A DNA stretch of 64,000 nucleotides from NCBI RefSeq assembly GCF_032118995.1, contig NC_092663.1:5704001-5768000 (forward strand), read 5' to 3'. This stretch comes from Asterias amurensis. Its lineage: Eukaryota; Echinodermata; Asteroidea; Forcipulatida; Asteriidae. How positions within the stretch are numbered: position 1 is the stretch's first letter; every line of letters starts with the position of its first letter. Below, piece after piece: positions 18,301-44,565 of the stretch. The translations under genes were made by a program, and so were the position numbers. The notes beneath the pieces are model-generated. The model was not told where the DNA came from and ran no database searches. It worked only from the letters and a program-made list of their open reading frames with translations.

Positions 18301-21300
18301 GTCAAGTTTAAATATCGGTTTTTCTTCGTTATTTTGTTGACTTTATTTTTACTTTGTTATATGATGTTAATTAGTATTACATTTTTAACAATATATGTCA
18401 TTTTTATGGTCATAAACTACATTTAACTAAAGTAACGGACGAAACAAAATCTCCCCAACGTAAAACTCCATAAGGCTGGGACCACAATGGTCCCGGAAGT
18501 TCAAATCCGCGCGAGACTTGCACAGTCTATTGGGCTCGATACTCCAGGCAACTGGGCCCAATAGACCGTATTGAACATGACGTCGCGTGGCTAAAATATA
18601 TGACCTACAAGATGGCGTCTGTGCATGTGCGTGTGTGTGTGCGTGCATGTGCCGTAGAAATCAAACCGGGAATGTTGCGTGCTGCGTGCTTTGATGATGT
18701 ACGCGTTTAGACGCGCGTAAGGTTTGCCCTACAGGATTGCAACTTTTCGTAGCAAAAAGGGGTTATTCAATATGGTCTATTTCATAAAGCCTGTAAGCAT
18801 AAAACATGCTACGCACAACAACATATTGCTCAACAGAAACTGGTTTACCTGCCAAAATTTCAGTTTACATTGTTGCAACTGGTGCCCCACTCATGTGTTA
18901 CCTTTAAGCGGTATTTTCTGCTTACCAGCTTTATGAAATTGGGCTCTGGTGGGCTGCAAAATTCTCGCCTCCTTTGTCAATAATTGTACAATGCTCAAAG
19001 TAATTTACAAAGAAAACATGTATTGAGTTTGTATTGAATATGTTTGTATTTATTATATAATTTGTTTATCTTGACTACTAGGAAGCTACAGAAGCTCATT
19101 CAATCACTTCTACCGATCCCATCCATCATGTTCACTCGGAGCCTAAAGTAAAAGCAAGTAAACTCCAACGTAAGTCTAAGAAGGCAAAGTCTGTAGTGAC
19201 TCCATGTGTTGATCAAGCAGCTCAGGCTCGTAGTAGAGCAAAACTTACTGCTATCACTTCACCTGTAGAGAATGAAGAACTGGATATCTTTGATGGAACC
19301 TATCAGTTTGATCAACCTCATACCGAAACAACAGCTGCCCTGAAGAAACATTCAGGAAGTAGTCAAGATCCCGGCAAGACGAAACCTGAGAATCATCTCT
19401 CAACCAAAGATAAGCACAAAACCAAGACAGGAAACAATAAAATGACCATACAGAAGGATTCTGTTCAACCAATATCAAACAAAGATTCATCCTCGTCAAA
19501 GATACCATTGCCTTCTCTTACCAAAGACCACTCAAAACCATCAAAGACAAAGACCATCATCCCAAGCGATGAAGGTCACGATCCATCTGACCTCCAAGAT
19601 GACCTAGGTAAAGGTCAATCAGTTAGGGTCAAAGGTGACTTGAAGAAATCCAGTCATAAAGCCTCTCGTAATGCAGCATTACAGCAACCGTCAGTCGCGG
19701 TATGTCTTGATGATGTATCTCATCAACCAGCGAGAGGAATGAAGAGATCTGTCGACGAAGAAAATAAGATAGAGGTCGATGATGAAGAAAATAAGATTGA
19801 GATTGATTATGAGGAGACGGGAAGAAAATCTAGAAGAACAGCTCCGGTTTGCTACAAAGAGCCTTCATTAAATACGTAAGTCAGTTAATAAACATAATAA
19901 AAATAATACTAATACTTTTTTCAACCCCAAAAATCATTTTAAAATTTACCCAGTCAGTTTCCCTTGTGGTTAAGACTTGCTATGCGCACTTATAGTGCAC
20001 ACATATCCACGGGTGAGTGAGATAGTGTGTAGGTGTTCAAGGCGCAGTAAAAAAAAAACCATGAAAAAACAGAAAACAAAAATTAGTCCTTGAAAACCTG
20101 TGACATGAGATAAGCTTTAAGAAGAGATTTGAATGTTGTGGTTCAAAGACAAGATCCAGGCCTGTATGCTTTGTTGGAAAGGACAAGGGCACCAAGGCAT
20201 TTTCTCCTTGATAAAGGGCACCCTATGAGGAAATGGTAAATTTTCTTCTGGAGCATTGCAAGGGCACCAAGGCAATGACCAGGGGGCATGGAGGCAAATG
20301 CCTTCGTTGCCTCCGTGAAGTATCAGGTCTGAAGAGCTACGATTAAGTTGTAGAGAGTTCTAGATGAAGAAAATTCACCCCAGGAGTTATAGTAGTATCA
20401 ACCATGGAGGACTAGGATTTCCCCTTTTAACCGGAAATCTGTTTTTTCTTCATGGGCCACTATCCTAATATAAAACACCCAAGTGTATTATTGTATTCTC
20501 ACAACGACCTTGCTCTTATCTTACGATTTTACGACATGCATGGAACAGTTTGGGACTGCTGATAAACCTTTATTAACTGTGCGTCATGTGTAGATCTTCT
20601 GAGCTTGTTTTAACTAGAGTCGACTATACATTCAAGCATAGGAGCTGCACAGTATTTCCACAGTACTCAACTTTTTAAGAATAAGTGATGGATTATTTGT
20701 TCCTGTAGTTTAATGGAACTTCTCTTTATTACTTTGAAAGCAATTTTGAATTTTCCATTTTCATTCAACTTATTTAGTAAAATGCGCCAACAACATTCAC
20801 CTGACAGGGCTAAGAAGAAGAAAGTTACCAAGAAGGGACAGGTATGTAGAAGAGTAAACCGCACTAACATGGCCAGAGTGTTAGGGGTCTTGGGTTCAAA
20901 TCCCAATCAGCACCATTTGATTTTTCTCTCATCCCATGTTTGGTTATTTCACTTTTATGGTTGACACCATACCAAATGTTGTGTTTGTTACTTTGCCTAG
21001 TTGCGCATCTATGCAGCACGGGGAGAATTATGTGGTTCTTAGGGAAAACCTGATGGGGTATACCACTGTGCCTCAGTTGGTAGAGCATCTGCCCAGAATG
21101 TCAGGGGTCTTGGGTTCAAATCCTAATCAGAACAATTTGATTTTTCTCATATCCCAAGTTTGGTTACTTCACTTCTATGGTGATTAGGCACCATATCAAA
21201 TATTGTGTCTGAAACTGTTTTATTATTTAAAGGCAGTGGACACTATTGGTAATTGTCAAAGACTAGCCTTCACAGTTGGTGTATCTCAACATATGCATAA

Positions 21301-24321: not shown

Positions 24322-27300
24322 TTAGAGACGTCCACTTTTACTGTATTGACATAATGCTTTAGCAGCAAGTCTCCGAGCTACAATACTATCAACACGTCCA
24401 ACAGCTAAAGCAAGATCTAGAAGATGTGGACCACTGGAAGTATTCAACATCTGAGTCATCTAAGAACAAACACAAATAAAGAATCAATAAAGCTCCACTT
24501 TAAATGATCATCAATGGGGCTGTGTTGAAAGGTTAGTTGTTTATATATATTATCTTCAATTACATTAGCAGTAGTTAGACTGTAGGATGACTTTCATGCT
24601 TTCATGCATTCATTTATCAATTTTTTTAATTTTAATTTAAAACAACATGAAATTCTTTGTCACGCAGTGTGCAATAAGTTAAAAAGACATTTTTTATTAG
24701 TCCGAGTCCAAACAGTAGGGCTGTTCATACTTCCTGCAAATCCGAAGTTTGGCATTACAGAGCTATTTTTGCAGCAAACATTTTCCCAGGAGTTGAGGCA
24801 CAAGTCAACTGTTGCAAAATTGCTGCAAATTTGTGATGTCCAAATTTGTTTGACCGGTCTTAAGAGTGAAATCCAATTCTGCATTTCTGCGCTAGCTGGG
24901 TAAGCAAAGAACGCCTAGTAACATGGAGTATGCAAGTGCACAAGCAACATTCCCTATCAAACAGTGAAATACCATTGACGTAAGCATGGAATTCCCTAGT
25001 CCAGTAGTAAATTACACTAGTCACCGAGGCCTGGTTCACAGCAATTGACTTACCATAGTAATAGGTGCAAACTGGAGTATGCCTGAACTAATATGTTCAC
25101 CACACTGAGTGATTTCTATCATGAGAGATATAACAAACTCAGTCCTGGGTCCTATCATACTGCTACACATCACTGATGAACATAACTGCAATAACGATAC
25201 TGAAAGGAAACAAACATCAAATGCGATTGTAGCAAAAATTAGTTTCGGTAATGTTTGCCCTTTTTGCTGTCCATCATCTGTTTTGATTACTTGTATTTTG
25301 TTTAGGTGGGTTTGTTTTGCTAGATTTGGCTGCCCATAGCTGCCCAACCAGTTGACCATAGACCTTTTCTTATTGCAACCCTACAGCATTGGTAGTGTGC
25401 AAGAATGTACTACATGTATTCCACACCCCAGAGGAAGTCATGCTTTTGAGTCTACTATGAGTTTGGGTATAAAATCATTGTGCTCAGTTTAGACAGCCAA
25501 TAAAGGATAATCTCAAATATATAGATATTACAGTTTTTTCTAATAGCTGGAGTCCATATGAAACAACAAGTCTCTTACCTCAAGTTAAAACATGGTAAAA
25601 ATGGTTTTTCTACAGAACGCTTCTAGCCAAATTTCTGAAAAACGCGGGGTCAAAAAAACCTGCGCGACAAAGGAATCGTGACGTCAGTGGTGGCTATTTG
25701 GTGTGGAAAATAGCGCCCTCAGTTTGCCAAAGCTGGAGAACTGTGAATATCGTCACTGGCGTCAAGGGGTCATTATAATAGATAAGCCGTTTTTGACTCT
25801 CGGCTGAAAAAGCCGCGCAGCCGGGTGCATTTTTGACTCGAGTTATTTGTTACTAAATGCAAACTTACTAAAATGGTTTTTAACTGGTATCTACGATGCC
25901 TGTTTGGCCATAAAAAGGTAATAGTTGAAATATTGAGAACATCCTTTATTGGCTCTTTTTAACATCAAGGACTTGTGACTGGGGCACCAGAGTGGGAGCA
26001 TCATGTCTGAATTCAAAGTCAGTGTTTTTATGGCTGGGTTTTCATGTGGTGACATACATGTATGCTTGCTTCTACTTGATGATGATATATAGCGTATGCA
26101 CGCTATTCTGGATCCATCTATCCGTTTTTTAAATTGCGCCCTCTATTGACAACAAGTTCATTCATTCAACGAATCACGTTTTATCAATTTTCTGACAAAA
26201 GTTTGTTCCGACATTTTCACACTTTGAGTGACTAGTTTAATCCATCCCAATCTACTGCCTTCTCAGATAATGCCTTCGAGAAGCATTGCCTGTAAGTTTA
26301 TAGCTTTCCTTGCCTTGTTTTTGGACTTAAAAGGGTGCTTTTGTGGGTATTTAGGCCTCGTTAATTCATGGGATTTGTGTACACATTTAGCTTACATATC
26401 GTTTCTGGTTAAGGGGATATGCATGTGGGTTTTTACTGCACGGGTCACGCCCAATTTTCCATTTTGTGAGGTCTAGTTCTGTGTATTATTGCATTTTAGC
26501 TTCAGCATTCTTTTAGCCATTCGTTACAACATGAAGTCATTATAGTTTTCCTATTCTTGTATTACAGTTTTACTCCTTGTTCATCACTGACGTCATATAC
26601 CCCCAGCTTGAGTAAATCACTACAGGAGCTTGGAGGCTATTTCCTGACTCTCATGTCGATTATTTATGGAGTTTGGCTGGCTGTCTATTTTTGGTTTCAA
26701 ACACCTCAAGGAGGACAGTACACACGCCTTGGTTCTGTATGTAAGTTCACATTTGTATTTCTTTCAGCCATTCCATTGCATTTCATAGTGCTTTTTCATG
26801 CTTTTACCTATATTTTTGTAGAGAGCCCTCCAGCCCTATTTACAACTTCTTACCTATTGCTTTAGGAAATGGTTCATTCAATTGTTGTTGAGTCTGAGCA
26901 ACAAGAAATCCAGTGCTGTAACTCACTGACCCTGTGGTTAAACACAATGAACAATCATTATTAATTCATGCTTACATAAAAGTAGCATTAACAGTCTTTT
27001 TTTTCATTGTTGGCTTCTTGTATGGCTTCATATCCATCACTCAGTGACGCTCAAGGCACTTTTAAACATTCACTAGTTTCCTGTTACTATGTTTCAGTTA
27101 TTAGACCTCCTTTTTACATAGCACTGTGTAATGGTTTACAAGGTGCTGTGGCGCTATAGGCCTATACTGCCAATCAAACCAGGAACACTAGGGTAATGTG
27201 ACGGGGGCAGTTTACCATGCATCCCCATTGAATTTAATTTTATCATTCTACATAACAGTCACATTACTTCAACCCCAAAAGTCCATTGGGAACACGGCTT

Positions 27301-30300
27301 TTGACCAAAGACAAAAGTTGGAATAGAAGAAGACTGACCTGTAAGATTACTTCCTGAGCCGTCTTCATCCCCTGGACTCAATAATCGTCTTATCTTTGAT
27401 GGCCTCACTTCATCTTTTAAGACACTTGAATCCTGTACATTAATCAAACAATACAGTAACACATTATTTTTACATCTGAGTAACCTTTTTACGACACAAA
27501 ACACAAACGCCCATAGATTCACATTAAACGTACACAGTTTCTGAGGATAATGATGGTAGAAAGCTTCCCTCATAATAGTACTTGCTGAGGTGCATGAGGT
27601 GCTGTATTTTTTTGAGAAATGAGTAATGAGTCGAACAATTTCCTGAGATAATTTTTATCATGGTGAGAATAGAACATTACGTTCCGCCTTGCAAATCATG
27701 AAAATATTCTCACCACTGGATACTAACCTCTCTATCTAGATCTCCTCTGCTTCTCTTACGACCTCTCAGCATCCTAAATGGACTCTCTTTAGACTTGGTA
27801 TCTATACACAAAAACAAATTGATTAACATCAGTCACAAACACGAAAGCCACATTTCCATTGGATTCTTTCCCCTGCTGCCACCCGGAAAGTTATGACTGG
27901 CTTTTGTGTGATTCAACAAGGTGCTGTGGCGCAATATGCAGCCAATCAAACTAGGAACACCGAGGCAAAACCCCTTCTCTTTTCAATAAGTGCACTGGAT
28001 TCTTTTACGGGCCTTACACAACACACTGGACCAAAGGCTAATAGGAATAGCGACACTGTCTGGTAAGCTTGGGCGATATCTCAATATAATCGAAAATCAC
28101 GATACCATTTCTTAAACGATTACCATATCGTCTTGATTTTTTGTTTATCGAATTATCGGCAAATCGTGGTTTTGTTGAAGTATCATGTCGTCTTCCCTAA
28201 TTGAGACATCTTGCAACCACAACGGGCTGTTTAAAAAAAAAAAAAAGTCCCAGAACCAACCCCAAGATTCCCCAGTTGAAAAAATAACATCAAACACTTT
28301 AGACCCAGGCGGTCTCCCACAGAAGTAACACAATGTATCAATTACCTCCCCTGTGTGGGAGCCTTGTGCGCCGCCTCACCGAACTGCAGACCACAATGGG
28401 ATCATATTACACAAACCACAACCCATCCACAACCAGTGTTATGAATGAGAAGTCACCCCATGTGCATTATGGATGCTTGATGGTTAGCTAGAATGAAATG
28501 GGCAGAATATGCACACATGAAAGAACAGTCATGCGTAGCCTTGCTCAAGGCAGTCGCAATATTCACTCCGAAAAGACGCCGCTGTAAACCCACCCGTATA
28601 CCATGTGCGATCACACCGCATGACCCACCCGGCCTGACGCATGCGGTAGTGTCCGGGGGCATCGTGTCGTGCGATGTTACGCACAGTGAATACGGGTGGG
28701 TTTTTACAGCGGCGGTCTTTTTTCAGTGTGAATAATTCGACTGCCTTGAGCAAGGCTAAGTCATGCGCAGTGGACACTTTAAAAGACACTTTTTGTGTGT
28801 GTAACTCATAGAGCTATAACACCATGGGTAGACAGTACACCTCACAGATCCATACCTCGAATTGGTTAGCTTTTAGAAGTATTAAAATTGGGCATACTAA
28901 AAGGTCAGAGTTTTAGACTTCAAATATAAATCGTGATTTAATCGAATATTGCGATACTTTTTTGACGATTCATCGTGGGAGAATAAAAGCAATATTGCCC
29001 AAGCCTTTCTGGGGTATTTATGAATATTGGATAAGGAATGTTACCTCTTGAGCTTGTATGACTGGTCAGCGTTGCCGCAATACACCACACTGTCAACTTA
29101 GCTAGAGCATGACCTCGAGGATTACTCAACTTCTCAAAGTTGAGTGGATCGGCTAGAATACGTGGCAGAACCTTACGAATCAGCGTCAATGTCAACTGCT
29201 CTATGTCCACTTGGAACAGGGCAAATGCAACTTCAACTGCAAAAGGGAAATTACTCAGTTAAAAACCTGAAATATGTTTTACACCCGTTTCAGACAGACG
29301 TGCCAGAGGGAGCCAATTCTCACAATGTTTTATACTATCAACAGTTCTCTATGGCTCATTTACAAGTAAGTTATAATTATGTTCACAATTATTACATGTA
29401 ATTACTAACAGAGTCCAGTGTCTTAAAGCCATTATACACTTTTGGAACAAACAAAAAAATAAAAGTTCACAGATTTACAAATAAGTTTCAGGGTTTACAG
29501 AAGGTAATGGTAAAAGACTTTTTTAGAAAACATTAAAACAATTATCAATTCTGGACAACGAGAATTACGGACTATAGTATTAAACACATGTCATGACAAG
29601 GTGAAACGTGCGGAAACAAAGGTGGGTTTTCCCGTTATTTTCTCCCGACTCCGATGGATGGCCGATCGAGGATAAATTTTCAGAGGTTTGTTATTTAAGT
29701 TGTGATGCACGAAGTGTGGGCCTTTGGACAATACTGTTTACCGAAAGTGTCCAATGGCTTTAAACAAACAAATAAATAAAAACAATGTTCAGATTTACCT
29801 GCCATAGTAAGCTCATTCTTACAATGTAAAGAACAAATCTCAAGCACCACTCCTCTGCAAAACCACAGAACACCCCCACAATTAATCAACTGATCCACCA
29901 AAGAGAGGGTCCTCCTATCAACACAACCCTTATCCATAATCTCTCTGAAGATGGATGACAACACTTGAGTTGAAGGGGTGGTTAGTGGTAAGGTTGGGAC
30001 GTCTTTGTTGGCATGAGCTAGTGTGTTTGTGCTGGTGCTGCTGCTGCACATTTTCTTGATAATGATTTTCATCATGGCGTTTCTGTGTAAGGATTATAAT
30101 ATCAATTTAAACAACAATTAACTTACTGGAGTCGGTTGGTGCTAAATGTCTAAAGATGTTATTGAAATAACCAACAAATGCATTCAAATTGAATACATGT
30201 AGTCGTGGTAGTTGTACAATTGCAAGTCAAAACCATTCCTGACTCCAAAAAGCATTTGAACATACAACGTCTGTTTGCGCCCTCGTTGTGAAACAAGAAA

Positions 30301-33300
30301 AACCATTAAAATTAAGTGTTTAGAAAAAAATCTTGTTTTTAAATGGACAAAACTTAATAATAATAGCAAATATAAAAAATGTTTTACTCATGCTCACGAT
30401 AACAAAAGTGTTATAAGTGTAACTCTACCAACACAATGAACCTTGACAAAATAATACCATTCCGTTTTGTTATAAGTGTAACTCTACCAACACAATGAAC
30501 CTTGACAAAATAATACCATTCCGTTTTGTTATAAGTGTAACTCTACCAACACAATGAACCTTGACAAAATAATACCATTCCGTTTTGTTATAAGTGTAAC
30601 TCTACCAACACAATGAACCTTGACAAAATAATACCATTCCGTTTTGTTATAAGTGTAACTCTACCAACACAATGAACCTTGACAAAATAATACCATTCCG
30701 TTTTGTTATAAGTGTAACTCTACCAACACAATGAACCTTGACAAAATAATACCATTCCGTTTTGTTATAAGTGTAACTCTACCAACACAATGAACCTTGA
30801 CAAAATAATACCATTCCGTTTTGTTATAAGTGTAACTCTACCAACACAATGAACCTTGACAAAATAATACCATTCCGTTTTGTTATAAGTGTAACTCTAC
30901 CAACACAATGAACCTTGACAAAATAATACCATTCCGTTTTGTTATAAGTGTAACTCTACCAACACAATGAACCTTGACAAAATAATACCATTCCGTTTTG
31001 TTATAAGTGTAACTCTACCAACACAATGAACCTTGACAAAATAATACCATTCCGTTTTGTTATAAGTGTAACTCTACCAACACAATGAACCTTGACAAAA
31101 TAATACCATTCCGTTTTGTTATAAGTGTAACTCTACCAACACAATGAACCTTGAATGTGTTGGAAAGTTACATTGCCTCTTATACGATGGTACACCAAGA
31201 TAAAACGTTAACACTTGTATCTTGTTTTTATACACCCTAGTGCCTTATACACAAGAAGTTTGGGTATTTCATTGATAATGGTTGGTTGTTATAAACTTTG
31301 TAAAATCCAATGGTAACATCATCAAGTGGCTCAAGAGGTGACTATATTCTTTACATGCAGAGTTAATTTGTTCATTTATTTGGGTATTTCGCCCCAGTGG
31401 AGTTGCCCGCTTTCAAAAGGTTTGCCAAGTAGTGAAACTTATGCAAGGAGTAGTGAAATGTATTTGAGGATTAGGCAAATTATATGCTAATGTTCGTTCT
31501 ATGCTCTATGCATGCATGCAATAAGCAGGATTGAGGAATGCATTTGTAAATGGTGTGCATTTTCCTATGATTATCTGAACGTTCAGTTTTATCACATATT
31601 TTTCATCAAGAGTTTTTTTCTTAAGGATTACCAAAAAAATGTAGTCTTTTTAAAATCATAGAAAAAGAAACCAAAAGACAACTTCAAAATTACTATAATG
31701 TTACAAATAAGTTCACTTCAGAAAACAGTTTCAAAAATCACATAAAAATATGCAATAAATGTTCTCGTTATGTTCTCGTAAAGTAGCCAGTATTAAGTAA
31801 TCGAGTAACTTACCGTTCATTGTCATAGATTTGTAGTGGTACTCCAAACTGACTAGTGCTGGGAGAGCAAATAATCTGTAGTAAGCTGAGGGGTCTATTA
31901 CGCTCAGTAGATGCAATCACAGCAATGTGGCTACATAACCAGGCCACACAACAGATGGGAAGACAGCATAACTTACTTTTCAGACTGTCAACTAGTTTCT
32001 GTGGAATAATCAACCAATCATACATCACATTATTGGGAGACCGATCTTTCTCACATGCTACCCCACCAGTATACCCAACACCTATTGTACAAATTGCCAG
32101 CCATAGTAAAATCATCTTTCTTTAAAGGCACTGGACACTATTGGTAATTACTCAAAATAACCGTTAGCATAAAACCTTACTTGGTAACAAGCAAAGGAGA
32201 GCTGATGGTCGTATAAAACATTAAGAAACAGCTCACTGTTAAAAACCCAGCTACACGTATGTCACTACATACCACAACACACAGACAGCATACCTTAAGC
32301 TTTTGAGGATTTTATGTCTGAGGTATTCAAATTCATAACTAAGACTGGTAAATTAACTATAGTAATAAATATCTTTGAATATTCTTTGAATGAATTCCTT
32401 AGAGGTAAATTTGTTACTTACTTGTATTTGATCCACATTAATAGCACCATTCTCCCAGGCAAACAACACTTCTTGCATAATATAAGGCATTGTATCAATC
32501 ACTTCATTCCAACGTGTCTGCCTGAAAAACCAAATCAATCATTGTAGATTAACCATTACCAAGTAATACCTAAATGTCCCAGTATGTAATGTAGTTTATA
32601 TGCCAGTCTTCTCCAGTAGTTTGTTTGTCTGTCTGTCTATTTAGTCTTTGTTTTGTCCTTAGCATGTACCTTTGTTTATGTATTTTGTAAAGGCAAGTCG
32701 CTACACGTCACCTGGCTTATTGCTCTTTTCTTTCTGTCTTTTATATATATCCATTACAATGTACTTCTGTAGTTTGTTGAAATATGTCAGTGAAAATTAA
32801 TGTTGTTTTGTATCAAACTTTCGTATAGGGCTGAATAGCTCAGTTGGTAGAGCGAGAGCACGTTAATCTGGAGGTTGATGGTTCGAGTCCCACTCTAGTA
32901 AATTTGTTTTTTTCAACCCCAAAATCAATTTCTTGTATTGACCAATTGTCTAGTTGTGGTATAGGGAAATACTTACATTGTCATGAGGCCCATACTGGAG
33001 TTATATTGCCCTAGGAGTATATTATAACCAACCATACCCTAATCCTAACTTACATTGTCTTGAGGTCCATACTGGAGTTATATTGCCCTAGGAGTATATT
33101 ATAACCAACCATACCCTAATCCTAACTTACATTGTCTTGAGGTCCATACTGGAGTTATATTGCCCTAGGAGTAGATTATAACCAACCACACCCTAATCCT
33201 AACTTACATTGTCTTGAGGTCCATACTGGAGTTATATTGCCCTAGGAGTATATCTCCCTTTGCTGGGTCAATAGCAGGGAATGAACCGAGAGGTTTAGCT

Positions 33301-36300
33301 CCGTTATCATCCGGTAAACACTGCTGCACCCATGTCTCAAATAGGGAATCGCCACCATTAGATGTCACCATCTACATGATAAAAGACAAAATAATCAACT
33401 ATGTGTCTATTAATACCTAAGATACAATAAGCAATAGTCAAACGAGTATTCTTTAAATAAGAAAAATTATTATAAAAACAAAATTCCTGTGTCACTCCTT
33501 CAAAACTTTTCTCTATGAAGATTTGTGGGATTAACACGGGACTCCCTCTGAAGTAACATAGTTTTGGAGAAAGGCTTCAGGCCTGAAGCCCCTGAAGCCT
33601 TTTTAAGGCATCTGAAAGGTGTTTTTCTTTCAATATTTTATTGCAACTTCCATGACGGATTCAGTCAAAATTTTCACAGATTTTTTATTTTATGCATATG
33701 TTGGGATACACCAAGTGAGAATACTGGTCTTTGTTAAATTGACCAAAGGTGTGCAGTGCCTTTATGCAGAACCTTTCCTTTACAGTGCTCTTTATAATGA
33801 GATCGGACTGTATACTGACTACAAGAGGCGATCAATGTCATACACTGTGAATCAGACGCTGGTTATACTTACCTCTGTTCCATACAGCTGAGCAATATGA
33901 CATAACATCAAGAAGGATATATCAAACAATGCTGCTCGGACTTGGGATCCTTTACTGACCTCTACCAGTGTCTGCTTACAGGCTTGCTCATTGAATCTAG
34001 AAATCAAATCATAGAACAATAACTATAAGATATTGCTTGAGGTGTCTCTATCAGTGTCTGCTTACAGGCTTGTTCATTGAATCTAGAAATCAAATCATAG
34101 AACAATAACTATAAGATATTGCTTGAGGTGTCTCTATCAGTGTCTGCTTACAGGCTTGCTCATTGAATCTAGAAATCAAATCATTTAGTACAATCAATAT
34201 AAGATATTGCCTGAGGTGTCTCTACCAGTGTCTGCCTACAGGCTTGTTCATTGAATCTAGAAATCAAATCATAGAACAATAAATATAAGATATTGCCTGA
34301 GGTGTCTCTACTAGTGTCTGCTTACAGGCTTGTTCATTGAATCTAGAAATCAAATCATAGAACAATAAATATAAGATATTGCCTGAGGTGTCTCTACCAG
34401 TGTCTGCTTACAGGCTTGCTCATTGAATCTAGAAATCAAATCATTTAGTACAATTAAAACAAGATAATATCTGAGGTACGCACAAATCGTTGTGCGTACA
34501 CTAAGGGCATTATGCGACTTACCCTCCACCTATAACACGCTTTATTCTTTTTTGAATAACTACAAAGTGTGTCAATAAATAGCACTGATTTTATTCTTGT
34601 AACTACCCTTAAAAACATCTCTCTTTCATATACTGTAGTGGTTTATGGGTAGGTAAACTCACATGTTGACAAATATGAATACACAATTATTATAATGTGC
34701 ACACAAAAACTTGATCTTGATGAGTGTAATCTTCACATCAGGAAACATCTGTTCAGACCATTAGAATAAGAATTGTGCCCCCCCCCCCCCACTAAACACT
34801 GTTATTTATCCATAACACAATATATACTCCGATCGCATCCAGTGGGCCCAGCAGGTACATTTTTTCAAGGGGCCGCTCAGAGGATTTTAACACACATGCT
34901 GATAATAGGGAATGAATTGTTGACATACTTGATAAGTTTTGCAGTAAACTTTTTGAGTTTTCCAGTGGTAGCTAGAGCAGCAATGATCAATTCAAAACTC
35001 TTTCCAGACATCATGTGACCAAGAACTCCAAGTAAATCATCGGGATTCTTGGAGTAATCCATGTCCATATTCTGCAATATAAAGCATAATGAATTGGGTA
35101 TAAATACACTCATCATGAAAGGTACTAGACACTGTTAACTTCATCAAAATAGTTTTAAGCCTAAAAACTTACTTGGTAACGAGCAATAGAGAGCTGTTGA
35201 TTGATTACATTGTGAGAAACAGCTCCCTCTGAAGCAACCTAGTTTATGAGGGAGATGATAATTTCTCACTCATAATTAAAAGACTTCATGCCTGAAGCCT
35301 TTTATAAGGCATCTGAAAGCACTCAAATTTGTGCACCAGGAATGTTTTTTCTTTCATAATCACTTATTTTCCTATTTGTGTGTTAACTATTTGAGGCGTG
35401 AATAGTCGCCCAGGCTTATTGATGAGTAACTAACCTTCAATATACTAGTTGATGTTGTTTCAGCCCTGATGACTAGTGTCGCATTAGGTAACTGTGGTGG
35501 TGAATCATGAGACACATGACCTGTAGATCGACAATGTACCGATGCTTTACGAGTTACTGATCTGAAATCAATAAGATCAAAATCATATAATCAGGTGACT
35601 ATTGAGTCATACAACCCTCATTCCAATGTATCTGGGCCCGATTTCAAAAAGCTGTTAAAGGATTTGGGTACTTTTTCAAAATTTCCATAGATTTACATTA
35701 AACTTACAGGGTTTGAAGATAATGATAGTGGAAAGCTTCCCTTCAAATCTTACTTACTGAGGTGCTGTAGTTTTTGAGAAATGAGTAAAACAATGTCATG
35801 AAAATACGTTTGTAAATGATCAAAATAATTTTCGTCTCATGAGACGAAAATTATTTTCATTACATTGTTTTACTCATTTCTCCAAAACTACAGCACCTCA
35901 GCACATAGTATTTTCAGGGAAGCTTTCTACTATCATTATCTTCAAACTGTGTAAGTTTAGTGTAAATCTGTGGACATTGTGTTTTTTGTCCTACAAAAGT
36001 TACATAGACCCTTTAATAGCAGAAAATATCGCTTGACAAATTTCTTTGCAAAAGTTTAATGGTGTCCTTTTAACCTTTTTAAAATGTTGTCACAGAATCC
36101 AAACGCAGTGAAGATAACTAATTTTGTTTAAGATGCTTTAGACTTTAAACTGGAAGGGAAACATGAAGTAGCTGAATCTGACCAATCCGGTGAATTCTGT
36201 CATTCTGTCATAAATCAATAGTCCTAAGTTTATAATTGCAAATGCATATAATAATTCTGTGCAAATGTTTGCATTCCCGGTATTCTCTGAGCGCTTTGCA

Positions 36301-39300
36301 ACCTTAGGAAAAGGCGGTATATAAATGGTGTTATTATTATTATTATTATTATTATAAATTTGTGTACCTTGATGCCAGTAACTCTCTGACTTGTGTTTCC
36401 GTTAGTAATCCAAGCTTACAACATTGCGGCAGTAACTGTTGCATACAATCACAGCTAGAAACATCAATGAGAAAAAACCATTATTAGCATCCAGCATTGA
36501 TCTAGCATGATACACATGGTTTGTCACGACTGGGACTTGAACTCATACTCTGCTGATCAGAAACACCAAAGCTTGAGTCCAGTGAACTAGACCACAAAGT
36601 GTCAAGACCAGGACTTGAACCCACACTCTGCTGATCAGAAACACCAAAGCTTGAGTCCAGTGCTCCCGGTGATCTTAACCACTTTGACCAGGACTCACAG
36701 TCATCTTATCTATCAACATTCCAGTTTGTTTTGTATTTTCCTGATTAATCAATTAATCAATATTCGGCATTTCAATGGTTACTCACTTGTGTTTGGTATC
36801 TGCCCGATCAATCAATACATTGAATCTGAGTAACTGCTCAAAGCAACTCAGGAAATGAGTATTGACGTCTGTAGAATCACTGAGTGATGGATTCTGCTTC
36901 AACCGAGTGAGGATCAGGGGTAGCTACAAACAACAATAAAAAGGTATTACTTTTCTGCAAACACCTGAATCCTGTTTTTTCTTTCATTATTCTCTTGCAA
37001 CTTTGATGACCAATTGAGCCTAAATGTTCACAGATTTGTTATTTTATGCATATATGTTGGGATACACTAAGTGAGAATACTGGTCTTTGACAATTACCAA
37101 AGGTGTCCAGGGGTGGATTTCACAAAGGTAGTCCTAACTTAGGACTAGTCCTAGGCAATGCTAAGAGATAGGACTGGTCCTAAGTTAGGATGAGTTACTG
37201 GTCCTAACTTAGGACCAGTCCTATCTCTTAGCATTGCCTAGGACTAGTCCTAAGTTAGGACTACCTTTGTGAAATCCACCCAAGTGTCTTTAATCTTTCA
37301 TTAACTTCATACATCTCCACTCCAAGGAAAGAAAACAAAATTAATATTTACTTGATACCACAAAAGTCACACAAAAGGAAAAAAATGAGATCGCATAAGC
37401 TTTTATAAATAAGTGAATAGTCTCCATGCCATACCTTGATGAATGTAAACGCCAGCCATTTCAGTTCATCACTCGGGTCGGATAGATCAATCAATCCAAG
37501 TAGACTAGCATGACATAACTCAAGGTATATACTAGCTCTAGGTAGATCCTGTACATAAACACAAAGCATCATAAACAGAAAGCCAAACCAATATGTTGTT
37601 TGGTAAGGAATCGTACTTCAGGTGAGGACGTAATGTAAGGAAGCTTGCAACATTGTCATACTTGAGCACTGCTCAATCTGAAACTATTTATGGGTGTCGT
37701 GGCTGAGCGGATAAGAGCACCGAGTTAAAGCTCTGGTGTTTCTGCTCAGCAGAGTGTGGGTTCGAATCCCGGTAGTGACTTTCGTGTCCCTGAGCAAGAC
37801 ACTTAGCTACGATTATTTCTCTCCACCCAGGGGTAAACGGGTACCTGTGAGGGCAGAGATGGTTCTTGTGATCGATTTAGCTTTAGTAGGGCATATTTTT
37901 TGCACAGGTCGTATACTCCCCATGGAGCTGAGATAGCTAAAGGAATGAATTAAATGACATGGGTAATAATGTTAGAAGTGCTTTGAGACGCCCTTCGGTG
38001 TGTAAAGCACTGTATCAAAACCAATTATTATTAATTAATAACAACATGAGGGTGTGGAGGATAAAACATGTATAATTGACTCTAACCTGTAGTTGTTCCA
38101 CTAGTAGTAATTGATCCACGAACGGTTGTAGGTCGCTGGTAACATTAAGAGCTGCTTCCATGAAGGTCATAATACCAATACTAGTACTCATTGACTTCAA
38201 TTCAATGGTATTAGTGTACGCACTGTGATTGGTTTCTAGTTGAGCTATTCTGTAATAATAACATGATAGCCAGTCAGTTATTGAGTCTTCAATTCAATGG
38301 TATTAGTGTACGCACTGTGATTGGTTTCTAGTTGAGCTATTCTGTAATAATAACATGCTAACCAGTCAGTTATTGAGTCGTCAATTCAATGGTATTAGTG
38401 TATGCAGTGTGATTGGTTTCTAGTTGAGCTATTCTGTAATAATAACATGATAACTAGTCAGTTATTGAGTCTTCAATTCAATGGTATTAGTGTACGCACT
38501 GTGATTGGTTTCTAGTTGAGCTATTCTGTAATAATAACATGATAACTAGTCAGTTATTGAGTCGTCAATTTAATGGTATTAGTGTACGCACTGTGATTGG
38601 TTTCTAGTTGTGCTATTCTGTAATAATAACATGATAACTAGTCAGTTATTGAGTCTTCAATTCAATGGTATTAGTGTACGCACTGTGATTGGTTTCTAGT
38701 TGAGCTATTCTGTAATAATAACATGATAACTAGTCAGTTATTGAGTCGTCAATTTAATGGTATTAGTGTACGCACTGTGATTGGTTTCTAGTTGTGCTAT
38801 TCTGTAATAATAACATGATAACTAGTCAGTTACTGAGTCTTCAATTCAATGGTATTAGTGTACGCAGTGTGATTGGTTTCTAGTTGAGCTATTCTGTAAT
38901 AATAACATGATAACTAGTCAGTTATTGAGTCTTCAATTCAATGGTATTAGTGTACGCACTGTGATTGGTTTCTAGTTGAGCTATTCTGTAATAATAACAT
39001 GATAACCAGTCAGTTATTGAGTCTTCAATTCAATGGTATTAGTGTACGCAGTGTGATTGGTTTCTAGTTGAGCTATTCTGTAATAATAACATGATAACTA
39101 GTCAGTTATTGAGTCTTCAATTCAATGGTATTAGTGTACGCAGTGTGATTGGTTTCTAGTTGAGCTATTCTGTAATAATAACATGATAACTAGTCAGTTA
39201 TTGAGTCTTCAATTCAATGGTATTAGTGTACGCAGTGTGATTGGTTTCTAGTTGAGCTATTCTGTAATAATAACATGATAACTAGTCAGTTATTGAGTCT

Positions 39301-41983
39301 TCAATTCAATGGTATTAGTGTACGCACTGTGATTGGTTTCTAGTTGAGCTATTCTGTAATAATAACATGATAACTAGTCAGTTATTGAGTCGTCAATTCA
39401 ATGGTATTAGTGTACGCAGTGTGATTGGTTTCTAGTTGAGCTATTCTGTAATAAAAACATGATAACTAGTCAGTTATTGAGTCTTCAATTCAATGGTATT
39501 AGTGTACGCACTGTGATTGGTTTCTAGTTGAGCTATTCTGTAATAATAACATGATAACCAGTCAGTTATTGAGTCTTCAATTCAATGGTATTAGTGTACG
39601 CACTGTGATTGGTTTCTAGTTGAGCTATTCTGTAATAATGACATGATAACTAGTCATTTATTGAGTCTTCAATTCAATGGTATTAGTGTACGCAGTGTGA
39701 TTGGTTTCTAGTTGAGCTATTCTGTAATAATAACATGATAACCAGTCAGTTATTGAGTCTTCAATTCAATGGTATTAGTGTACGCAGTGTGATTGGTTTC
39801 TAGTTGAGCTATTCTGTAATAATAACATGATAACTAGTCAGTTATTGAGTCTTCAATTCAATGGTATTAGTGTACGCAGTGTGATTGGTTTCTAGTTGAG
39901 CTATTCTGTAATAATAACATGATAACTAGTCAGTTATTGAGTCTTCAATTCAATGGTATTAGTGTATGCAGTGTGATTGGTTTCTAGTTGAGCTATTCTG
40001 TAATAATAACATGATAACTAGTCAGTTATTGAGTCTTCAATTCAATGGTATTAGTGTACGCAGTGTGATTGGTTTCTAGTTGAGCTATTCTGTAATAATA
40101 ACATGATAACTAGTCAGTTATTGAGTCTTCAATTCAATGGTATTAGTGTACGCAGTGTGATTGGTTTCTAGTTGAGCTATTCTGTAATAATAACATGATA
40201 ACTAGTCAGTTATTGAGTCTTCAATTCAATGGTATTAGTGTACGCAGTGTGATTGGTTTCTAGTTGAGCTATTCTGTAATAATAACATGATAACTAGTCA
40301 GTTATTGAGTCTTCAATTCAATGGTATTAGTGTACGCACTGTGATTGGTTTCTAGTTGAGCTATTCTGTAATAATAACATAATAACCAATCAGTTATTGA
40401 ATCTCAATGTGTAGATGTGTAGTACAAGTCTGTATTCATGCAGTATCTGAACAATGTATCAAGACTCACTTTCACTGTGATAGTCTCACTTACAATGTGA
40501 CTTTCTTAAAGGCACTGGCCAAGCACTGGACACTATTGGTGATTACTCAAAACAATTGTTAGCATGAAATCTTTCTTGGAAACGAGCAATAAAGGCTTAT
40601 TTAGGCATATGATAGCGCACAAACTTGTGCAACGAGGGTGTTTTTTCTTTCATTATTCTCATGCAACTTTGATGAACTATTTTTTGTTTTACATGAGGTT
40701 GGCGGCACTAGCTGTTAGCTGCAATGGTAGGATGAGCCTTGGTTGTCAGCTTGTGGCGATGAAAACTGTCAGTTTTGGTGCAAAGGCAAAAGGCTAATTC
40801 TTGTAAATTAAAAAGTAAAAAGAGGTGAGTTAATGTATAGAATAAGAATTACTCTAAGAATACTGACTTAAGAACATCAGTTAGACTCCTCTCCAGCCGT
40901 TCTCGTATTGATTCAGTAGTTGCTCTATCTCCTTTATCTTTCTTATTAGCATTCTGATTGGAGGTTGTCCTTGGAGCATTGAGAAGCTGGTCCACTTGAC
41001 TACTACCACCTTCAAATATCAATCAAACAATTACATATTATTTTATCAACTTCAGATTATACGTTCTTTAAAGCCATTGGACCCTTTCGGTAAACAGCGT
41101 TGTCCAAGGCCCACACTTTGTGTACCACAACTTCTATATCAAATAACAAACCTGTGAAAATTTAGGCTCAATCGGTCATCGGAGTCGGGAGAAAACAACG
41201 GAAAAACCCACCCTTGTTTCCGCGCGTTTCGCCGTGTCATGACATGTGTTTAATTCTCGTTAACGAGAATTTATATTGTTTTGCTGTTTTCTCAAAAAGT
41301 AAAGCATTTCATGGAATAATATTTTAAGAGAAGTCTTTCACCATTGCCTTCTGTAAACCCTGTAAGTTATTTGTAAATCTGTGAACTTTTTTTTTTTTCT
41401 GAACCGAAAGGGTCCAATGGCTTTAAAGGGTGTATGCACTTTTTGAGGGCGAAAAAACACAATGTCCACAGATTTACACTAAACTTACACAGTTTGAAGG
41501 TAATGATAGTAGAAAGCTTCCCTGAAAATATTATGTGCCGAGGTGCTGTAGTTTTTGGGAAATGAGTAAAAAAATGTCATGAAAATAATTTTGGTCTCAT
41601 GAGACCAAAAGTATTTTAAGCATTTACAAACGTATTTTCATGACATTGTTTTACTCACTTCTCAAAAACTACAGCACCTCAGTAAGTTATATTTGAAGGG
41701 AAGCTTTCCAAAATCAGTATCTTCAAACCCACTAAGTTTGATGTAAATCTATGGACATTTTGAAAAAGTACCCAAATCCTTTAAGCAAAAGAACTTCATT
41801 AGAGAGCATTATTGACTTAAATGGCTGAAGCACTCCTAACCTGAACATCTGACGTCACACTTCAAGGCTTAAGAATTACACCAGATCCTGATGTTAGACC
41901 TCGTTGAATATGGGACCCAGAAGCGCTATATTTTTCTGTATTTCACTTGCACTTGTGTGATAACTTATAGTATAAGAAGCCAC

Positions 41984-42020
<37 letters not shown>

Positions 42021-44565
42021 GATTATTACTGTAGGCTGACTCCCTGATGCAATATTTCCTACTCACCTCTAGTTTGTTGTCCTGGTTGTGACTGTGACTG
42101 AGTTGCACTTAAAGTAACTTTGATAGAATCAATAGTCTCTTCCATCTCAGTCCATGTACCTACACCAAATCAAGAAATGTATTCACATCAAATAGTGCAG
42201 GTAGTATCAAGGAAGGATTGTACAGAGGCATTCAGTCCCTACCTGACTGCATAGGTTTTCTCTGGAACAAATATCTGGGGTTTTCCTCCCACATCTAAAA
42301 CTGGATTTTTGTTATTGTCTTCTCTCTTCTCGTTTGGCTCTAATAAGAGCATTGAGAATAAATATATCCAAATCCTAATATAATAACAGTGACAGAAATA
42401 GAAGTAGAATTAGTCAAGTTATTATGGCGGCTGGTAAATCTTACCTTCATCTTCAAGTTTAGCAATAAACAGAAATATCTTATTGACTCGACTCAAACAA
42501 GTAATGCGTAATATTTCGCTGATGATGTCTAGATTGGTGGCCATGACTTGTAGATCTCTTAACTCAGGCATCTTCTCTAGTATGAGGGCAATAGAATGAA
42601 GAAGCCATTGGATGACTTGTAGAAAGGACTGACATAGATTCAAACAATCTTCCATTGAGCCTTGGCAGCTAGATACACAAGCAAGAAAATAAGTGGTAAG
42701 AAAAGAAAGAACACTCCTTTTGCACAAATTTGAGTGCTTTTTAATGCACAATGAAAGGCATCAGGCCTAAAGTCTTTTAATTGAGTGAGAAAGTACCTCT
42801 TTCTCAATAACTATGTGACTTCAAAGGGAAGCTTCTCTCACAATATTTTATAGTATCACAACTTTCCATTGCTTGTTACAAAGCATGTTTTTACACTAAC
42901 AGTTGTTTTGAGTAAATACAATACATCGCCTTCAAGGACCACTATAAGATTGAAAACCAAATGTCATAAAATAAGAATTGGAAATGACAAAAAACATTTA
43001 ATTTGAACAAAGGTCTGTAGTGTGCAGTTTATATCTTACTCTTTAATTTAGGATCAGTCCTGATTGTTGTTTTCACTTTAGTGATTAAGACTAAACTAAT
43101 AATCAAGAAATCTGACTAGAAAATCAGCTGTGATAATAAACCATACTTACTTGATTTTGTTGACACATCCTGAGAAAATCTCCATCAAGCTCTTCATACA
43201 ATACGGCCTTGTTATGCATATTGTGTCATGATCACTGATCGAGTTAAAAACGGCTGAATGGGAGACTACCTGTAAATATAATAAGAGAACATTATTGTTA
43301 ACATGCAGGGTTTTAAATAAGCATTCGCTGGTTAATTTAACCAGGCAGAAATGGGCCATTCTTACTACCCACCGGGTTGGGTAAGTTTCCAGGAGGAAAA
43401 CTTCATGGGTTGTCTGCACTGGACTTCAAATGGTCTAGTTACCCATTTGCTTTTTTAGTTTATCCCCAAAAAGTCCCCTAAATTCTCATTGAGATAGGAC
43501 ATCATCAGGCTCAATGCGAACACAGCTAAATTCTCATGGGTCTAGAAACAGAACTCAAGCTTGTGATTCTTACCTGAGATACTATCACATGTTTGAGATA
43601 GGACATCATCAGGCTCAAGGCGAACACAGCCAAGTTCTCATGGGTCTAGAAACAAAACTCAAGCTTGTGATTCTTACCTGAGATACTATCACATGTTTGA
43701 GATAGGACATCATCAGGCTCAATGCGAACACAGCTAAATTCACATGGGTCTAGAAACAAAACTCAAGCTTGTGATTCTTACCTGAGATACTATCACATGT
43801 TTGAGATAGGACATCATCAGGCTCAGTGCGAACACAGCTAAATTCTCATGGGTCTAGAAACAAAACTCAAGCTTGTGATTCTTACCTGAGATACTATCAC
43901 ATGTTTGAGATAGGACATCATCAGGCTCAATGCGAACACAGCTAAATTCACATGGGTCTAGAAATAGAACTCAAGCTTGTGATTCTTACCTGAGATACTA
44001 TCACATGTTTGAGATAAGACAGCATTAGGCTGTTAGGATTGGGTCCAACAAAAGCCTGGGTCAAGATCATATCTGTAGAGAAAACAAATAATGCATCTTT
44101 TAATAACGATGTATTGACAAAACATGCATACAGTACAATAACCATTAAAACACTGGAGGCCAAATTATCGAAAACACACAATTGAGCCCCAATCGCGACA
44201 CTTGTGTCCTGAAGTAAGACACTTAAACCATTGCTTCATCTTTTAGATTGGACGTAAAGCTGTGTGTTGTTATAAAAACTATCAATGTACCCCAGTACAG
44301 ACTTATTGCAAAGAGAGGTGCACCCTAGTATGTCTGGCAGTGCAACTATCTTCAATCATGAAGGCTGCACTAGAACGAAAGAAAGAGAAGAATGTTTGAT
44401 GAGGTAAGTTGAAAGCCTACCCGCTAGTTTATAATTATCTCCTGACACTCCTGGTGGTAAGATCTGCTTCATTTGTGTACTCCATTGTACATCTGTCCAA
44501 CGTTCTCTCCATGCCTTCAGTAATAGTTCCTTCATTGATAAACATCTTTGCTGTATCGTCTCCAT
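24322..44565 (-). CDS. MED24: Mediator complex subunit 24
   Basis: Twenty-two coding exons on the minus strand: 44565-44421, 44072-43990, 43269-43151, 42668-42445, 42159-42067, 41009-40868, 38249-38087, 37548-37435, 36923-36787, 36454-36368, 35561-35435, 35071-34929, 33996-33873, 33371-33208, 32521-32422, 31998-31814, 30082-29799, 29236-29045, 27801-27728, 27432-27339, 25199-25054, 24459-24322. They sum to 3078 nt with every phase closing: 1025 aa, against about 989 in vertebrate MED24. Matches in order include [71 protein letters not shown] and [13 protein letters not shown]24 is a tail-module subunit linking activators to RNA polymerase II in the nucleus (family knowledge). The family's segment just before the last two exons is shorter here, so an extra small exon in 25200-27338 could be missed. 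Four introns carry tandem copies of their own exon borders. Confidence 0.95.
28066..29010. mobile_element. hAT-like MITE with a nested palindromic element
   Basis: The left end GCTTGGGCGATAT (28068) pairs with the right end, the complement of GGCTTGGGCAATATTGC. Further in, ATCGTGATTT pairs with AAATCACGAT. Nested at about 28529-28767 is a second palindrome with arms of about 100 bp (GTAGCCTTGCTCAAGGCAGT; ACAGCGGCGGTC), GC-rich against AT-rich surroundings. It lies in a MED24 intron between exons 29045 and 27801 and codes for nothing. Confidence 0.7.
29290..29759. mobile_element. Family A fragment joined to a TTAA-flanked MITE of family D
   Basis: 29290-29422 is the end part of a family A-like element (GAGGGAGCC, CTCACAATGTTTTATACTAT). 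TTAA at 29423-29426 is its right flank and also the left flank of a second element (29427-29759), which ends GAAAGTGTCCAATGGC before TTAA at 29760-29763. The latter is an inverted copy of the element at 41072-41422. It lies in a MED24 intron. Confidence 0.7.
30398..31153 (+). repeat. Tandem array, 13 near-identical 59-bp units
   Basis: The unit contains GTTTTGTTATAAGTGTAACT followed by CTACCAACACAATGAACC and TTGACAAAATAATACCATTCC. The start word AACTCTACC recurs at 30421, 30480, 30539 and so on to 31129, exactly every 59 bp, with essentially no substitutions. It lies wholly within the MED24 intron between exons 31814 and 30082 and copies no exon sequence. Such uniformity suggests recent expansion or strong homogenisation. 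Confidence 0.95.
32126..32245 (-). mobile_element. MITE family A variant, one end only
   Basis: After TTAA (32122-32125) the sequence AGGCACTGGACACTATTGG and the subterminal words follow, then the match stops at about 32245. It lies in a MED24 intron. Confidence 0.6.
32829..32905 (+). mobile_element. tRNA-like SINE head
   Basis: A-box-like TAGCTCAGTTGGTAGAGC and B-box-like GGTTCGAGTCCC are at tRNA-like spacing. The first seven bases (GGCTGAA) do not pair with the expected 3' stem (CTCTAGT), so it is not a functional tRNA. A T-rich body follows. Related heads are near 44890 and 56497. Confidence 0.65.
32972..33250 (-). repeat. MED24 splice-donor array, four 77-bp units
   Basis: The exon 33371-33208 ends at its donor at 33207. 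Downstream in the transcript come three more copies of the last 44 or so coding bases (encoding [15 protein letters not shown]) with their GT donors, with exon-end positions at 33131, 33054 and 32977. Period is exactly 77 bp. Units also hold about 30 bp of intron (CCAACCATACCCTAATCC on the plus strand). Confidence 0.92.
33965..34455 (-). repeat. MED24 splice-acceptor array, six units of 86-88 bp
   Basis: The true exon starts at 33996. Identical or near-identical acceptors, each followed by about 35 coding bases ([12 protein letters not shown]), lie upstream in the transcript with exon-start positions 34082, 34168, 34256, 34342 and 34428. Spacing is 86, 86, 88, 86, 86. Each unit also includes intron sequence (ATAAGATATTGCCTGAGG on the plus strand). 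Confidence 0.92.
35659..36012. mobile_element. TTAA-flanked MITE, family C, palindromic
   Basis: TTAA flanks lie at 35655-35658 and 36013-36016. The arms pair through AAAACTACAGCACCTCAG and its complement, with ATTTTCGTCTCATGAGACGA at the centre. A second copy is at 41427-41780, and decayed partial copies lie near 27460-27600 and 55123-55280. It lies in a MED24 intron. Confidence 0.85.
36515..36705 (-). mobile_element. tRNA-derived SINE heads, tandem duplicate, minus strand
   Basis: Two copies, about 82 bp apart, of ACTCTGCTGATCAGAAACAC followed by CAAAGCTTGAGTCCAGTG. This is the complement of the head of the SINE at 37687 (CACTGGACTC, GCTCAGCAGAGTGTGGG). It lies in a MED24 intron. Confidence 0.65.
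37112..37282. repeat. Near-perfect palindrome of about 170 bp
   Basis: GGGTGGATTTCACAAAGGTA at the left pairs with its complement TACCTTTGTGAAATCCACCC at the right. Almost all of the interior pairs too (CCTAACTTAGGACTAGTCCT repeated as complement). It sits inside a family A-like fragment (AAAGGTGTCCAG before, GTGTCTTTAATC after), so it is a nested insertion. It lies in the MED24 intron between exons 37435 and 36923. Confidence 0.9.
37687..38040 (+). mobile_element. tRNA-derived SINE, complete copy
   Basis: The head is tRNA-like: GTCGTGGCTGAGCGGATAAG (A-box-like) and GTGGGTTCGAATCCCGG (B-box). The body has GAGCAAGACACTTAGC, CACCCAGGGGTAAACGGGTA and CTCCCCATGGAGCTGAGA. The 3' end has TTCGGTGTGTAAAGCACTG and an ATTATTATTAA tail. 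Head variable-arm length suggests a type II (Leu/Ser) tRNA origin. It lies in a MED24 intron, opposite to the gene. Confidence 0.82.
38205..40405 (-). repeat. MED24 splice-acceptor array, 24 units of 92 bp
   Basis: The exon 38249-38087 starts with an acceptor and about 52 bases encoding [18 protein letters not shown]. That block, its AG and the adjoining intron recur every 92 bp, with exon-start positions 38249, 38341, 38433 and so on to 40365: one real and 23 decoy acceptors. Units differ by a few substitutions (cgcaCtgtg/cgcaGtgtg, cAagtc variants). The array fills almost the whole intron between exons 40868 and 38249. Confidence 0.96.
40508..40700 (+). mobile_element. MITE family A variant, fragment
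   Basis: TTAAAGGCACTGGCC and ACACTATTGGTGATTACTCA start the fragment. GCACAAACTTGTGCAACGAG and TCTTTCATTATTCTC follow in family order before the match fades. It lies between the 24-unit array and the next upstream MED24 exon. Confidence 0.6.
41072..41422. mobile_element. TTAA-flanked MITE, family D
   Basis: Left TTAA is 41068-41071, right TTAA is 41423-41426. The ends are AGCCATTGGACCCTTTCGG and its complement. The centre has ATTCTCGTTAACGAGAAT. The inverted copy is at 29427-29759. It lies in a MED24 intron. Confidence 0.85.
41427..41780. mobile_element. TTAA-flanked MITE, family C
   Basis: It follows family D directly, with the 41423-41426 TTAA serving both. Right TTAA is at 41781-41784. 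The central palindrome is TTGGTCTCATGAGACCAA. Same family as 35659-36012, partner arm order reversed. Confidence 0.85.
43480..44000 (-). repeat. MED24 splice-donor array, 104-bp units
   Basis: The exon 44072-43990 ends with bases coding [14 protein letters not shown] and a GT donor. Four more copies of this end (coding [14 protein letters not shown]) with the donor GTAAGAATCACAAGC follow in the intron at exon-end positions 43886, 43782, 43678 and 43574, exactly 104 bp apart, plus a partial unit without donor near 43483. Unit-specific changes (Ala/Thr-type SNPs in CAATGCGAACAC) show the copies have begun to diverge. Confidence 0.93.
44180..44345 (+). mobile_element. tRNA-derived SINE fragment
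   Basis: CACTTGTGTCCTGAAGTAAG, ACACTTAAACCATTGCTTCA and TAGATTGGACGTAAAGC match the body of the SINEs at 59860 and 61660. It lies in MED24 intron 1, just upstream of the second coding exon. Confidence 0.6.

Follow-up and report, generated by a model that had tools for sequence, protein, structure and literature searches.

Four tandem arrays across exon-intron borders of a MED24 gene resemble the 'mirage' minisatellites of amphioxus

The original report of 'mirages' is said to be that of Canestro et al. in 2002, and the classic experiment with duplicated splice sites reportedly that of Reed and Maniatis in 1986. In amphioxus, mirages are tandem repeats that span exon-intron borders and occur in the Adh3 and globin genes (PMC3087553). 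Either border of an exon can be duplicated, the splice signals are kept in many, not all, of the copies, and the clusters are unstable in length, between haplotypes or in somatic cells; in the portion of the source drawn on here, the Adh3 data together with RT-PCR of the globin genes suggest that regular splicing is undisturbed (PMC3087553). Mirages are also reported for TnC and PGBD5, again according to an extract of the source (PMC3902484).

Several other systems combine tandem repeats or duplicated splice sites with questions of splicing. In a potato RdRp gene, a tandem duplication across an intron-exon boundary copied the splice signals, and a new intron was gained (PMC4974935). The internal tandem repeats of human segmental-duplication genes lie partly at exon-intron boundaries, with 162 alignments before curation and 27 intron modifications after it (PMC2812944). 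The 38-bp VNTR in intron 6 of TERT is located more than 1 kb from the splice junctions and acts by RNA pairing (PMC3948165). When beta-globin acceptors were duplicated in vitro, the upstream copy carrying 14, 55 or 205 nt of exon, exclusively the distal (downstream) site was used, and splicing was very inefficient (PMC5389562). These four accounts likewise follow excerpts of their sources.

The window, the whole stretch of 64,000 nucleotides that was analysed, has a G+C content of 36-39% and contains a MED24 gene on its minus strand (Table 1). The gene model of 23 exons and 22 introns gives an open frame of 1,051 amino acids, in which the Pfam domain Med24_N was found (E 1.8e-255) and which is matched by human MED24 from the solved Mediator structures in the PDB (E 9.7e-188). 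A 97-bp candidate exon of the first model (42243-42339) broke the frame and was removed. The alignment with human MED24 spans the junctions of exons 2/3, 12/13 and 14/15, and the 6/7 junction falls inside the Med24_N match. Because the conserved protein spans these four junctions, the exon-proximal copy in each border array is taken as the true splice site; normal splicing of MED24 is assumed from the open and conserved frame. The first 436 of the 1,051 residues had no relative among viral contigs, and Rfam at gathering thresholds returned no matches in the window. A plus-strand gene at 19082-19879 carries a Shugoshin C-terminal motif (PF07557, E 3.7e-07). By eye, a long inverted repeat at 37115-37280, a MITE-like fold-back element, lies in a MED24 intron, and a tRNA-like stretch, possibly a SINE, adjoins the 77-bp array at 32828-32905; ARAGORN reported no tRNA in the window.

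Table 1. The MED24 gene, the exons whose borders are copied, and the tandem arrays within the gene. Positions are those of the window; TRF, Tandem Repeats Finder.
Feature	Position	Strand	Basis	Exonic bases per unit	Splice-site copies
MED24 gene, coding span	24322..44565	-	Spliced model in open frame, Med24_N and human MED24 PDB match
Exon 2, true copy	43990..44072	-	Gene model; human MED24 alignment across junction
Exon 7, true copy	38087..38249	-	Gene model; 6/7 junction within Pfam match
Exon 13, true copy	33873..33996	-	Gene model; human MED24 alignment across 12/13 junction
Exon 14, true copy	33208..33371	-	Gene model; human MED24 alignment across junction
104-bp array, 5.2 copies, exon 2 donor	43489..44031	-	TRF and copy alignment	42	True donor after base 43990; decoys after 43886, 43782, 43678 and 43574
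92-bp array, 24.1 copies, exon 7 acceptor	38195..40408	-	TRF and copy alignment	55	True acceptor with first exon base 38249; 23 decoys, outermost 40365
86-bp array, exon 13 acceptor	33960..34477 (34444 in the 86-bp TRF row, 34477 in the 260-bp row)	-	TRF	37	True acceptor with first exon base 33996; decoys at 34082, 34168, 34256, 34342 and 34428
77-bp array, exon 14 donor	32971..33253	-	TRF and copy alignment	46	True donor after base 33208; decoys after 33131, 33054 and 32977
59-bp array, 12.6 copies, wholly in intron 16, touching no border	30409..31154	-	TRF, 100% matches

A preliminary description of this DNA had seen four arrays straddling exon-intron borders of MED24, and all four are reported by TRF where they had been placed. 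Their units of 77, 86, 92 and 104 bp hold 4, 6, 24 and 5 copies of a splice site, respectively, with matches of 95-97%. Two arrays copy acceptors and two copy donors, as had been stated; the 30-52 coding bases then given for each unit have to be corrected to 37-55, counted by the TRF limits. The extra splice sites, hereafter decoys, number 35 (four at exon 2, three at exon 14, five at exon 13 and 23 at exon 7). That they all lie on the intron side of the true exon is correct as an observation, but would not be special, as any tolerated tandem copy that spans a border should give this arrangement. The list itself was incomplete: the fifth MED24 array, intronic and with a unit of 59 bp, had been missed. 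The units of the four border arrays are unrelated in sequence (cross-unit blastn gave short matches only, with a lowest E of 0.16), so the arrays most likely arose separately, in agreement with the independent origin first proposed.

The internal structure of the arrays bears on whether they exist as assembled. In the 92-bp array, 13 copy types were distinguished among 24 units, with shared variants that alternate; the splice-site copies of the 86-bp array are spaced by 86, 86, 88, 86 and 86 bp, and each of the border arrays has its own, distinct outer flanks. These copy-specific variants, the 88-bp spacing and the separate flanks argue against the arrays being assembly artefacts of single-copy borders, an explanation that we regard as extremely unlikely. 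Copy-number errors are common in long arrays, and the 59-bp array, the only one in MED24 with 100% matches, keeps that identity over all of its copies, which is what an artefact could look like; this array is possibly very recent, or possibly an assembly effect. For the border arrays, the copy number may be off, whereas their non-existence is unlikely.

The breakpoints of the 92-bp array lie, by eye, in similar short sequences, ATTGAGATTCAAT in the intron flank and ATTGAAGTCAAT in the exon, which together with the 13 types among its units fits minisatellites that are born by slippage and undergo turnover. Mirages of amphioxus are described as evolving in concert within the cluster, with the units at its boundaries excepted. 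In a copy alignment of the 92-bp array, made without a tree, some variants are shared among copies inside the array, the outermost copy is diverged and the copy at the exon 7 boundary is not; in its exonic part, the true copy is identical to several decoys. In the 86-bp array, one variant is common to the true exon copy and the decoys at 34428 and 34168. The true copy of exon 2 is the most diverged of the 104-bp array in its coding part.

We consider it probable that the four arrays are neutral minisatellites of the mirage kind, a known phenomenon that is unusually frequent in this one gene. Short tandem duplications would have arisen separately, each by chance across one exon-intron border, and the arrays may then have grown into the intron by unequal exchange or slippage. 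The normal mRNA could still be made from the copy beside the body of the exon, while the remaining copies would turn intronic and be tolerated; an array within a coding exon, unlike a border-spanning duplication, would usually not be. The sequence itself shows the anatomy of the arrays, the unrelatedness of their units, the strength of the decoys and the stop codons; the neutrality of the arrays, their route of expansion, the means by which splicing finds the true site and the decay of wrong transcripts are inferred.

The window is rich in minisatellites, as it holds arrays of 40 and 67 bp in addition to the 59-bp intronic array. The 67-bp array (five copies, 55991-56325) apparently belongs to the 3' untranslated region of a neighbouring gene on the minus strand, within a last exon assigned by eye, and the 40-bp array (12.7 copies, 63492-64000) reaches the end of the window and lies upstream of an exon in the same gene. 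By eye, this neighbour seems to encode a zinc-finger protein; Pfam searches with three pieces of it gave no accepted match. At 7687-8153, 16-bp C-rich arrays and an inverted G-rich counterpart flank a telomere-like (CCCTAA) run at 7947-7986.

The preliminary description held that four such arrays in one gene look more than chance. For an estimate, units of 59, 77, 86, 92 and 104 bp were placed at every position of MED24 with its extra copies collapsed (16,400 bases, 3,156 of them exonic), a position being tolerated if the unit was wholly intronic or spanned one border. At a tolerated position, the five units, in that order, would span a border with probabilities of 0.18, 0.22, 0.25, 0.26 and 0.28. 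Random placement thus predicts 1.19 border arrays, and four of five were observed, about 3.4 times as many. The probability of at least four of five arrays falling on borders is 0.012, and that of all four units of 77-104 bp doing so is 0.004 (0.009 and 0.003 without the condition of a tolerated position); these values are post hoc and uncorrected, so that the claim is best kept as suggestive. Since four of the five arrays lie on borders at this probability, plain chance placement may be an incomplete account. The figures leave room for a moderate bias of arrays towards borders and are suggestive of one, short of proof.

Such a bias could be mechanistic, with minisatellites starting or persisting preferentially at exon edges; for example, an exon copy held by selection might reseed the array by gene conversion, and border arrays would then remain recognisable for longer than intronic ones. 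This is compatible with neutrality, and we view it as possible, if on the unlikely side. Apart from the excess over random placement, the sharing of variants between true copies and decoys in the 86- and 92-bp arrays fits gene conversion (or plain shared ancestry), and several amphioxus genes have arrays of this kind, as far as the extract of the source goes (PMC3087553). On the other hand, the count is post hoc and comes from one gene, the divergence of the true exon 2 copy points to no recent conversion at that border, and the sole array with perfect matches is intronic. Older border copies were also sought by comparing each border with 45 nt on either side against MED24 and 600-nt flanks on the same strand, at E values up to 1 (44 queries). 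For the other 40 of the 44 borders this gave nothing comparable, and of the weak matches that crossed a border, the one at the exon 17 donor ranked first (40 nt at 75%, E 0.005 per query for 44 queries). The top matches overall came from the exon 10 donor (E 1.8e-8 over 25 nt); they reflect a simple repeat of three bases next to the border and were rejected as border copies. The earlier suggestion of a local tendency to form minisatellites at exon edges agrees with a pattern published for amphioxus, in the parts of the sources used here (PMC3087553, PMC3902484), and is mildly favoured at a probability of about 0.01, which is not proof.

The decoys are not weak. Splice-site matrices were derived from those 20 donors and 20 acceptors in MED24 that are free of arrays; by these, 31 of 35 decoys reach or surpass the score of their true site (4/4 at exon 2, 3/3 at exon 14, 3/5 at exon 13 and 21/23 at exon 7). 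The AG is kept in all 23 decoys of exon 7 and all five of exon 13, and the GT in all seven decoys of the two donor arrays. Since the true site is mostly no stronger than its decoys, it would have to be chosen by exon context. We suggest that the full-length exon, exonic enhancers and exon definition, rather than the strength of the site, pick the exon-proximal copy. The beta-globin experiment gives some support to such a choice for the acceptors, since the distal site used there is the downstream one, in the position of the true MED24 acceptors; this comparison extends to the excerpted in vitro results (PMC5389562).

A wrong choice would truncate the protein. Whichever of the 35 decoys is used alone, the reading frame meets a stop codon within the repeat, at a distance of 1,226 nt or more upstream of the last junction, and the resulting early-stop transcripts would be expected targets of nonsense-mediated decay. 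The preliminary description had argued from unit lengths of 2 modulo 3 that use of a decoy would shift the frame. The lengths are right for the main units, and the 59-bp intronic unit is likewise 2 modulo 3; the argument from frame fails, as the stop within the repeat is met regardless of unit length modulo 3, and additions in multiples of three stop too.

These properties could be read as a sign of selection on the arrays as splicing regulators, whose decoys slow splicing or send transcripts to decay and so tune the dosage of MED24. The strength of the decoys and the early stop after every single wrong choice are in line with it, as are two precedents, each taken from part of its source: the very inefficient splicing of duplicated beta-globin acceptors in vitro (PMC5389562) and the control of human TERT splicing by an intronic repeat array (PMC3948165). 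Against it, the splice-site columns of the arrays carry no extra conservation: 3 of 60 splice columns and 20 of 299 other columns are variable (p = 0.78; 31 of the 35 decoys), a comparison of low power because the arrays are young. The four decoys left out were the outermost of the 92-bp array (40365) and of the 77-bp array (32977) and two of the 86-bp array (34168 and 34428); as three of them (40365, 34168 and 34428) differ within the acceptor columns, their omission hid no conservation. Selection for decoys is thus unsupported, the splice columns being no less variable than the others. RNA folds of single units were ordinary as well (z of -1.35, +1.33, -0.42 and -0.81 for the 104-, 77-, 86- and 92-bp units). 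The arrays affect two donors and two acceptors in four introns with unrelated units, and amphioxus mirages are reported, in the part of the account at hand, not to disturb splicing (PMC3087553). Regulation by selected decoys therefore seems improbable to us. The more specific proposal of selection for many weak splice sites is not supported, given that the decoys are not weak, their splice columns are as variable as other columns, the folds of single units are ordinary and the search within the gene found nothing comparable at the other 40 of its 44 borders.

Repeats of the mirage kind are probably harmless, although not of necessity. Because the duplicated beta-globin acceptors were spliced so inefficiently (PMC5389562, in the excerpt considered), the MED24 decoys need not be innocuous and could slow splicing without any selection for slowing. 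The arrays may therefore have a cost in splicing speed.

The 104-bp array has one further property. In four of its units (43574-43957), an acceptor-like site and a donor bound a 72-nt open segment, a candidate cassette exon; the acceptor-like sites score 5.1, 7.8, 7.8 and 7.8 and the donor 13.0, the array-free acceptors of MED24 ranging from 3.5 to 17.5. Any one of these segments, included alone, would leave an uninterrupted frame through the rest of MED24. The intron preceding the candidate measures 32 nt in the unit next to exon 2, which is probably too short, and 136, 240 and 344 nt in the units further away. These frame-preserving segments could mark the arrays as stages in the gain of introns or exons, with units recruited as new exons (exonization). 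A border-crossing tandem duplication did give rise to an intron in the potato gene (PMC4974935), and for the globin genes it has been proposed that mirages are a way by which new introns arise (PMC3087553), both according to excerpts of the papers. We nevertheless think this very unlikely to be what the arrays represent. The conserved protein needs no new intron or exon, and an open frame of 72 nt is not improbable, because 42 of its bases derive from coding sequence. A scan of the 92-, 86- and 77-bp arrays for splice sites found no open cassette: across the entire 92-bp array a single donor-like site scores 3 bits or more, and it yields a 71-nt segment with a stop; no donor in the 86-bp decoy copies exceeds 2.8 bits, and no acceptor of the 77-bp array exceeds 0.0 bits. 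Nor does intron gain by tandem duplication of the Rogers type, where a new intron is spliced out between the two copies and the protein is otherwise retained, describe this locus, as the coding sequence of MED24 is complete without an array-made intron.

The MED24 repeats amount to a set of natural constructs in which 4, 5, 6 and 24 nearly identical splice sites compete, and in each the protein is kept by the exon-proximal site alone. Without any engineering, they could serve to measure how exon context prevails over splice-site strength, and to ask if minisatellites have a preference for exon edges. The dispersed repeats in the introns seem echinoderm-like in character. For a host other than amphioxus, mirage-type arrays would extend past the lineage of the cases described in the consulted parts of the two reports, all of them cephalochordate (PMC3087553, PMC3902484). 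For a non-cephalochordate host, such as an echinoderm, a bolder combination would be that mirage-type arrays are wider in deuterostomes and truly biased towards exon edges, and that the MED24 units are also preparing exons; we hold this combination to be unlikely. Were it true, the 72-nt cassette of the four 104-bp units would repeat a segment of MED24 in a splice variant.

Among the known systems, TERT shares with MED24 an intronic tandem array with splicing at issue; the MED24 units contain splice sites and fold ordinarily as single units, in contrast to a VNTR that, in the source as excerpted, lies more than 1 kb off the junctions (PMC3948165). The repeats of human segmental-duplication genes share the expansion of minisatellites, partly at boundaries; unlike those of MED24, they have shorter units (about 30 bp, in about four copies), belong to recent paralogues and are in half of the cases reported as protein-modifying, as given in the extract of that study (PMC2812944). 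The potato RdRp case, by its partial account, is a single duplication with a new spliced intron (PMC4974935), whereas MED24 has multi-copy arrays and a conserved mRNA without a new intron.

The closest likeness is to the amphioxus mirages of Adh3, BflGb6, BflGb9, TnC and PGBD5, as these are portrayed in the portions of the literature used here (PMC3087553, PMC3902484). As read from a single DNA sequence, the four MED24 arrays are mirages in structure, each unit joining exonic bases, a splice site and intron. Like the amphioxus repeats, they copy a border in tandem on the donor side (exons 2 and 14) or the acceptor side (exons 7 and 13), with the extra copies in the intron; mirage units range from 10 to about 160 bp and keep splice signals in many copies, and the same is true of MED24. 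In amphioxus, 6 and 3 units are described for the haplotypes of BflGb6; MED24 differs in carrying four arrays within one gene, one of them with 24 acceptors.
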